Source of the DNA: an uncultured Clostridia bacterium
Lineage (GTDB): Bacteria > Bacillota > Clostridia > Oscillospirales > Ruminococcaceae
Length of the DNA: 64,000 nt
Direction of reading: 5' to 3'
Assembly: GCA_948473085.1 (NCBI GenBank)
Contig: CAOKWH010000002.1
Span: forward strand, 91,035 to 155,034
In this document: piece by piece, positions 22,456 through 39,120 of the stretch
How positions within the stretch are numbered: position 1 is the first letter of the stretch
How the letters are laid out: the number at the start of each line of letters is the position of its first letter
Notes under the pieces: generated by a model
What the model saw: the letters and a program-made list of their open reading frames with translations, nothing else
Database searches by the model: none
What the model was told of the DNA's origin: nothing
Program-made: the position numbers and the translations under genes

Positions 22456-23200
22456 TGCTATAATAACGGCAAAGCCGTTGTTATACTTAAATTTTAAAGG
22501 CCCTTTTTCTCGCCCCCTGCGGGGCAACCGAAAAAGATGGCCAATTATACCATTCCGCTATCGATTCATGGTATAATAACGACAAAATCGTTATTATACT
22601 CAATTTATGCGCAGAACCTCGCCGCCGGAGGCGGCAACCGGTTCTAATGCGCAATTATACCATTTCGGTGTAAACACCTTCATGGTATAATAACCGCAAA
22701 TAGCTATCATATAACGCACTTCTAAAAGGAGGGGGGCGTTTGTGGGGGGAACCATATGGTTCCCTACCGCATTAGAGGGAGCGTAAGCGAACGGATACCC
22801 CGCCACAGCGGAATACCATATCGCCCGTTTCCGGGCGATATGGTATAATAACCGTAGAGCGGTTATTAACTCAATTTATGCGCAGAACCTCGCCGCCGGG
22901 GGCGGCAACCGGTTCTAATGCGCAATTATACCAGCTATCTAAAATATACCTGGGCGGCGCTTTGAGTCTTGTAGGTTATAACAACGAAGTATACAGGGTA
23001 CCTTTCTATCAAAAAGAGGGCGTTTGCGTTTCCCTATTATATGAGAGGGCGTGAAAGCGAACAGACACCTCACTGTGATACTATATCTGTGCAAGGAACC
23101 CCGTCGCTGGGCGTGGCAACCGGTTATACTATCAAAATTTTAAAGGCCCTCTTAACCCCCCTTTGCAGAGGCAGTTAAAAAGAGGGCCATATACTATATT
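22456..23200 (+). repeat. Structured intergenic locus of recurring nested-hairpin modules
   Basis: Repeated TGGTATAAT...ATTATACCA boundaries (22456-22552 imperfect, 22569-22662, 22683-22819 variant, 22841-22933), each enclosing two hairpins; 65-nt near-identical copies at 22598-22662 and 22869-22933 (one mismatch); further related module at ~23011-23200. Confidence 0.8.
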
Positions 23201-23243: not shown

Positions 23244-24074
23244 ATGCAGAAAAAGCAGGATAGGGTCTGGACATTTGTCCTGTCCGTCTATCTATTGTGC
23301 TTTGCCCTGCGCATTTGGGAATATGTTGTGCTGCGTACCGATCAGACAGTCTTGAGCGAGGCATTTGTCCACAAGCTGCTGGGTATTGGAGTGCTTTATG
23401 CAGTTGCCAGATACAGCGGCCTGGGCCTGCGGCAGATTGGTTTTGCACCGTCCGGGGCTGCTCGGAACCTGTCGCTGGGTTTGGGCCTGGGCCTGTTGGC
23501 CTTTGTCCCGGCCTATTTGGCTGAAATTGCCCTGCTGGCTGCCCGGGGCAATTTTACGGGGGTGTGGCTGTTTGTCAGCGCCTACACTGTGGATGGCACT
23601 GCCGCTGCCCAAACCGGCCTTGTTTTCTTCCTGCTTTGCATAGCGGGGAACCTTATCAATGTGCTGATGGAGGAGGGTCTGTTCCGGGGCCTGTTCCAAA
23701 AGGCGCTGGAAACCCGCTACCCCTTTTGGGCCAGCGCCGCCCTGGCCTCCGGTTTGTTTGGCCTGTGGCATATTATGGCGCCGCTGCGCAGCTATTGGGA
23801 TGGCAGCATGGGCAGCGCCGCCTTTTGGGCCAACGCCCTGCTGCTGGTGGGCGCCTCGGCCCTGATCGGGTTTAAATTTGCGCTGCTCACCCGCATTACC
23901 GGCAGCCTCTATGCGGCAATGGGGGACCACTTTGTCAACAATACCATTGTCAATCTGCTGCATGTGCTGTCCTATAGCGGGGCGGATGAGCTGCAAACAG
24001 TGCGCATTGCCCTTGCCCAGAGCCTCTCCTTTCTCCTGGTGCTGATTTGGTATAAAAACAAACGGGGGTTATGA
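23244..24074 (+). CDS. CPBP-family intramembrane metalloprotease
   Basis: MEEGLFRGLFQKALE (EExxxR), SGLFGLWHI, DHFVNNTIVN; start at MQKKQDR. Confidence 0.9.
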   Translation: MQKKQDRVWTFVLSVYLLCFALRIWEYVVLRTDQTVLSEAFVHKLLGIGVLYAVARYSGLGLRQIGFAPSGAARNLSLGLGLGLLAFVPAYLAEIALLAARGNFTGVWLFVSAYTVDGTAAAQTGLVFFLLCIAGNLINVLMEEGLFRGLFQKALETRYPFWASAALASGLFGLWHIMAPLRSYWDGSMGSAAFWANALLLVGASALIGFKFALLTRITGSLYAAMGDHFVNNTIVNLLHVLSYSGADELQTVRIALAQSLSFLLVLIWYKNKRGL

Positions 24075-38429: not shown

Positions 38430-39120
38430 GCTTGCAGCCTCCGCCTGTTGTTCTGTTTATCCGCTCCCCTCCCGCCTGCCAAAGACAGGCGGGAACAGGT
38501 TCCTTTTTCTGTATAAGCCCTTGCAGCCTGTCCCATACTTTATTATAATAGGGGCAGGCCGCACTTTATATAGTATAGTAGCCGGCGGCGGGGCTGTCAA
38601 TGAAAACTTTTACAGTGCCCCAAAACTGCACCATGACCTGCACAATACGCCGTTTTGCTTTGGTTTTGCGCAGGAAACAATGCAAGCAGCCCCTGTAAAA
38701 CCGAATTTGGGCCTTGACAGAGAGTGCCGGAGGCCGACCAGGCAGCCGGCGGCTCCTCAAAAGGCAAAAAGGGAGGGAAAAACAGCCAAAAGCCTTAGGC
38801 AAAACGCACAGTTTTGGCAGTAAAACCTGTCGAAATGTGCGAAAATGTGAAAAAGCGCCCTTTTTAGGCCAAAAATGAAAAAAAGGCTTGCAAAGAGCAG
38901 CGGGGCGTGCTATTATAATTGAGCGTGACTGCACAAGATATGCGATGAAGCGGGAGGTGGCCGTGGCAACACGGGGAATTTCCGCCGAGTATGTCCGATT
39001 TTAAACCGGGCGACTTAACTTGAATACTGGATGGAGGATGTTGAGCTGCACAGCGGCACGGCATTTGACAGCAGGGCTGCGCCCCATGGGCGGCAGGCTT
39101 TCACAGATAAGTTCCGGGTA

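Follow-up and report, generated by a model that had tools for sequence, protein, structure and literature searches.

The BOX elements of Streptococcus pneumoniae are modular intergenic repeats assembled from sub-modules and situated near genes, and by description they resemble the units reported here. A likeness also exists to integron attC sites and cassette arrays, where a folded hairpin with extrahelical bases goes together with tandem cassettes at one site. MITEs and RU/ERIC-type non-autonomous repeats share with our units the short length, the lack of an ORF, many intergenic copies, inverted repeats, and the existence of empty and filled sites (PMC2229807). REPs and REPINs with their RAYT (TnpA-REP) likewise form clustered imperfect hairpins with conserved unpaired bases (PMC3116915, PMC3733652, PMC8266576). 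Finally, mobile promoters, as they are portrayed in PMC8049555 with reference to Matus-Garcia 2012 and van Passel 2014, are promoter-like sequences repeated upstream of non-homologous genes, as our units are. Here we describe a set of hairpins from Clostridia that probably form the core parts of a non-autonomous mobile repeat in DNA, one that inserts into sigma-A promoters at their -10 box and re-creates this box.

The window analysed is a 64,000-nucleotide stretch from the genome of an uncultured member of the Oscillospirales (1.9 Mb in 45 contigs; G000 in the following). Its array at 22456 to ~23190 is flanked by a divergent gene and by a gene for a CPBP/Rce1-like protease, and consists of three units, fragments of more, and a second, unrelated repeat in two copies. 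A preliminary description had drawn four hairpins in this region with a common asymmetric internal loop, TC/AACC, in stems of different sequence. All four exist with the sequences and at the positions reported, hairpins 2 and 3 being each one pair longer than claimed (Table 1). Hairpins 1-3 are much more stable than their shuffled counterparts (z -5.8, -7.0 and -7.2), but the stretch containing the fourth is not (z -0.5); the outer stem of this hairpin has 4 bp, and CC replaces TC. Because of this z-score, and because its minimum-energy fold differs from the one drawn, we read hairpin 4 as a decayed copy.

Comparison with homologous loci elsewhere in the order revealed that the described hairpin, termed H2, is only the middle third of a ~112-bp repeat of three hairpins, H1-H2-H3. 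H1 corresponds to TGGTATAATAACCGCAAAGCGGTTATTATAC, H2 adds to the described hairpin a basal stem, GCC/GGC, with an AT bulge preceding the GGC, and H3 follows the scheme ATTATACCAT-(short hairpin)-ATGGTATAAT. Both ends of the unit are extended -10 promoter boxes, TGNTATAAT, and tandem units have a TGGTATAAT box in common, with a period usually near 110 nt. Searches relied on two models: R1, a covariance model built on the complete unit, and R2, built on H2 alone. A chimeric unit occurs on the minus strand of locus L007, where a subfamily B 5' half of H2 (AGAACC) is joined to a subfamily A 3' half (GAAAAAG), so that the outer stem is broken. The second, unrelated intergenic repeat (GGAGGGGGGCGTTTGTGGGGGGAACC..GGTTCCCTACCGCA..AGAGGGAGCGTAAGCGAACGGATACCCC) is interleaved with the units at 22718-22812 and 23004-23085 of the window; it is also present at two loci (L063 and L076) of G034, a genome for which R1 reports no unit.

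Table 1. Components of the array and the gene downstream of it, in window coordinates.
Feature	Position	Strand	Description and basis
Unit 1 (subfamily A), H1 + H2 core + H3	22456-22579	+	Bounded by TGCTATAAT (22456) and TGGTATAAT (22569); R1 match 136.3 bits, E 1.7e-22; RNA fold z of H1-H2 part -5.75
H2 hairpin 1	22503-22536	+	CTTTTTC-tc-GCCCC(ctgc)GGGGC-aacc-GAAAAAG; sequence, folding
H2 hairpin 1, basal stem	GCC 22500-22502 / GGC 22539-22541		AT bulge 22537-22538
H3 of unit 1	22544-22577	+	ATTATACCAT ... ATGGTATAAT; right arm is the -10-like box common to unit 2
Unit 2 (subfamily B), H1 + H2 core + H3	22569-22691	+	H3 with loop TTTCGGTGTAAACACCTTC; R1 own-genome match G000:C2:113603-113727, 106 bits
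H2 hairpin 2 (core of unit 2)	22613-22644	+	AGAACC-tc-GCCGCC(gga)GGCGGC-aacc-GGTTCT; sequence, folding
Broken further unit, start only	22683-22720	+	TGGTATAATAACCGCAAATAGCTATCATATAACG
Unit 3 (subfamily B)	22841-22933	+	H1 + H2 intact, H3 truncated or replaced; R1 match 22841-22984, 64 bits
H2 hairpin 3 (unit 3)	22884-22915	+	AGAACC-tc-GCCGCC(ggg)GGCGGC-aacc-GGTTCT; sequence, folding
H2 hairpin 4, decayed	23097-23125	+	AACC-cc-GTCGC(tgggc)GTGGC-aacc-GGTT; sequence; not favoured by folding, z -0.52
Related degenerate hairpin	23145-23188	+	GGCCCTCTTAAC ... GTTAAAAAGAGGGCC, without TC/AACC loop; sequence, folding
Gene for CPBP/Rce1-like membrane protease	23244-24074	+	Same direction as the units; PF02517 E 2e-13

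Is the TC/AACC loop a conserved motif? Across the 1.9-Mb genome the pattern TCGCC-N3..16-GGCAACCG occurs 41 times and the reversed control pattern twice, and overall we count ~40 core hairpins and 92 similar places. When the H2 segments of 61 genomes were folded without constraints, the loop formed in 39 genomes and in 90 of 177 distinct units, and the AT bulge in 30 genomes. The loop recurs in many genera and is framed by 42 combinations of stems; 89 of the 90 units close it on the outer side with a C-G pair. Among 21 diverse cores, both partners vary at 13 of 15 stem pairs (7.8 expected), a value that 0 of 500 shuffles reach; the pairing of 96.8% of their stem cells is biased upward, as these cores were selected for folding in this way, and drops to 39-52% in sliding controls. 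A fixed loop within unrelated stems, as first proposed from the window alone, is therefore a conserved motif, and its interpretation as a recognition motif gains support; a protein may be what recognises it. The preliminary description had named missing covariation or an unconserved loop as grounds against its reading. Covariation and conservation are both found, but some relatives carry other loops (ATCC/TCC and similar, in G001, G112, G089 and G120) or a short H2 with the AT bulge only (G103, G013, G155, G008 and G077). The loop is thus not essential everywhere, as a few genomes have an H2 without it. That the hairpins arose by chance or are simple palindromes has nothing in its favour beyond the weak fourth hairpin; given the 41 matches against 2, the covariation, and more than 100 model matches across the order, we rejected this idea as having next to no probability.

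R1 recovers the unit from 49 of 149 genomes in the family and from 47 of 295 in the order, covering at least 10 families. Outside the order, R2 identified it in a single genus of another Clostridia family among the genomes sampled. A scan of named genomes with one core sequence returned at least 111 stretches, nearly all from records named Oscillospiraceae, Ruminococcaceae or other Clostridia/Clostridiales. No matches to one core pattern were obtained in viral contigs, nor any match in the plasmids searched. Phages gave one weak match with 70% identity to a unit (L465, MT835828.1 16675-16802), on an unverified and unannotated human-faecal 'Bacteriophage sp.' scaffold that may be bacterial.

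The 80 loci read from the scan of named genomes were collected with one fixed stem pattern and are consequently uninformative on the frequency of other stems. About half of them have the same core flanked by outer hairpins with unrelated sequences (TATAGTAAACG, TTTTGCTATGCAAAAGCATAGCAAAA, GGTTGAAACAAGTTTCAACC and others), and these cores show no orientation bias (9 vs 9). H2 is thus the conserved core, and sitting at promoters is a trait of the TATAAT-ended branch. Altogether, these loci (L324-L403, from other gut and rumen Oscillospirales) show the H2 core inside five or more further pairs of outer hairpins that are unrelated to one another.

The TATAAT-ended units mostly point at a gene. In 66 of 176 arrays a gene start with a ribosome-binding site is located downstream only, and in 13 upstream only (p 1e-9), with a median distance of 69 nt; an independent sample gave 12 downstream against 2 upstream. 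The neighbouring genes are unrelated, housekeeping and other, so that a promoter-like sequence is repeated upstream of unrelated genes, a trait of mobile promoters. Of 123 first TATAAT boxes, 32 are preceded at a spacing of precisely 17 bp by a hexamer that agrees with TTGACA in 4 or more positions, while all other spacings yield 1-11; before the right-end box, which lacks a -35, this holds for 1 of 119. Owing to this enrichment at spacer 17, many first boxes are predicted to serve as the -10 of genuine sigma-A promoters with a -35 outside the unit.

Comparisons of related species at four loci reveal what such promoters look like without a unit: the empty allele is the same promoter with one TATAAT box (TGNTATAAT), and the filled allele has the unit between two. 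Upstream of a NifS-like gene in genus g41, with flanks that are 85-95% identical, two genomes are empty and show one box (ACATGGTATAAT; G186 has TTGACAAACATGGTATAATAAGCATAG and G204 ends with AACCATAG), and in two others (G042 and G247) a whole unit stands at this place between two ATGGTATAAT boxes. At a PPIase gene of genus g26, G027 is filled, G176 and G177 are empty, and G163 and G175 keep the right part only. The PPIase gene of genus g19 is preceded by several units in G160, and is empty in G179, G180 and G020, where the promoter contains TGGTATACT or TGGTATAAT. Lastly, the genus of the window itself has a DNA-glycosylase gene whose promoter is empty in G002 and carries a TC/AACC unit in G000 and ATCC-type units in G001. 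This glycosylase promoter (L011:5048-5171 in G000, L467 in G001, L468 in G002), where two species have units that differ in their H2 loop type and the third has no unit, is either a hot spot or a site of core replacement. The right box could stem from duplication of the target or belong to the unit; among units that allow a distinction, 4 have a box like the target and ~6 one like their own H3 arm. As a short repeat without an ORF and with precise empty sites, the unit has these traits in common with MITEs. Recombination between the two TATAAT copies could have generated part of the empty alleles by excision. Since empty promoters occur in more distant species too, insertion appears favoured over excision, although the direction is not proven for each locus.

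The location between a -35/-10 promoter and a gene, in the direction of the gene and with a right part that would be transcribed, could also be that of a structured 5'-leader RNA, in which H2 and H3 regulate the downstream genes in cis through the TC/AACC loop, and the strong covariation fits this notion. We nevertheless regard it as unlikely: the downstream genes are unrelated, the unit is missing at the same promoter in related species, the left arm of H1 is upstream of the expected transcription start, and the same core with other ends has no preferred orientation. Furthermore, the stems are 89-99% Watson-Crick across units, and a G.U pair occupies 1 of 315 stem cells in the 21 cores, a near-absence that is unusual in structural RNA and natural in DNA palindromes. 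Counting G.T against A.C mismatches across units yields 19 vs 27 for H1, 20 vs 38 for H3 and 7 vs 4 for H2. This lack of an RNA signal led us to abandon the earlier claim that the plus strand acts as RNA, which had been based on G-U pairs in what is one decayed copy. At gathering score, no Rfam covariance model matches the hairpin region or the cores of 15 other loci, and at E values up to 10 the hairpin region has chance-level matches only. Elsewhere in the window, positions 38937-39016 match the S10-Clostridia ribosomal protein leader (37.3 bits).

Another possibility, which we hold to be unlikely, is a promoter module that spreads by duplication and recombination and is kept for its benefit to expression, with no dedicated mechanism of transposition. 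The TGNTATAAT boxes, the tandem repeats in gene direction, and the existing concept of mobile promoters cited above speak for it. Promoter function, however, leaves the conserved H2 hairpin, its loop and its bulge unexplained; the same core is found between non-promoter ends without orientation bias, and the occupied sites had a promoter already.

How would the mobile DNA repeat that we favour work? An existing sigma-A promoter would receive the unit at its -10 box, oriented with transcription; promoter targeting would result from the match between the unit's ends and the extended -10 box. Afterwards, one TATAAT would be found with the host -35 upstream, and a second at the right end of the unit, beside the gene. 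Repeated insertion would lead to tandem arrays with a box in common. With its TC/AACC loop and AT bulge, H2 may present a strand-distinguishing DNA hairpin to a trans-acting machinery that moves the unit, and the outer hairpins, presumably exchangeable, would set the target. Such an insertion might be tolerated because each end keeps a -10 box, and the gene could be transcribed through the unit or from the right-end box. A bolder proposal is a new class of single-stranded mobile DNA element whose entry point is the -10 box, in the non-template strand of the RNA-polymerase open complex, with a recognised TC/AACC DNA hairpin and exchangeable outer hairpins as determinants of the target; we offer this version as speculation that is unlikely to hold.

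Which enzyme could mobilise the unit? A conserved, imperfect and strand-asymmetric hairpin, with the left box outside the unit and the right box inside as in the logic of IS200/IS605, brings to mind single-strand elements of the REP/REPIN or IS200/IS605 type, for which a Y1 HUH transposase provides the movement. This origin is quite improbable: Y1/IS200 transposases (PF01797) are absent from G000 despite its ~40 copies, they are no commoner in genomes with the unit (21 of 49) than in the family (63 of 149), and no transposase is adjacent. On these grounds the Y1 transposase was rejected as mobiliser, even if the enzyme may have been lost or gone unrecognised. A non-exhaustive search beside the units showed only ordinary genes, with no recurring gene family and no autonomous transposon that has the same ends.

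We found no description of the element in the openly licensed literature. If true, insertion targeted to the -10 box that re-creates this box at both ends would be an unusual, harmless strategy for a mobile repeat, and one by which it places itself in the leaders of many genes of common gut bacteria. As the core hairpin is kept across families while stems and neighbours change, its recogniser is directly testable.

How does the unit relate to the known systems? From BOX elements, compared by description and not by sequence, it differs in its promoter-box ends and in the box common to tandem units. Integron attC cassettes offer an analogy only, for the unit has no ORF and a different core sequence. 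Unlike MITEs (PMC2229807), it ends in direct TGNTATAAT boxes and targets a promoter box, and it contains a conserved internal hairpin of changing stems and has no known parent transposon. Unlike REPs and REPINs, the copies read have no GTAG/CGTC tag, G000 lacks a Y1 transposase, and the units are oriented at promoters. Compared with mobile promoters as outlined in PMC8049555, finally, it is a structured three-hairpin unit inserted into pre-existing promoters, whose core also exists with non-promoter ends.
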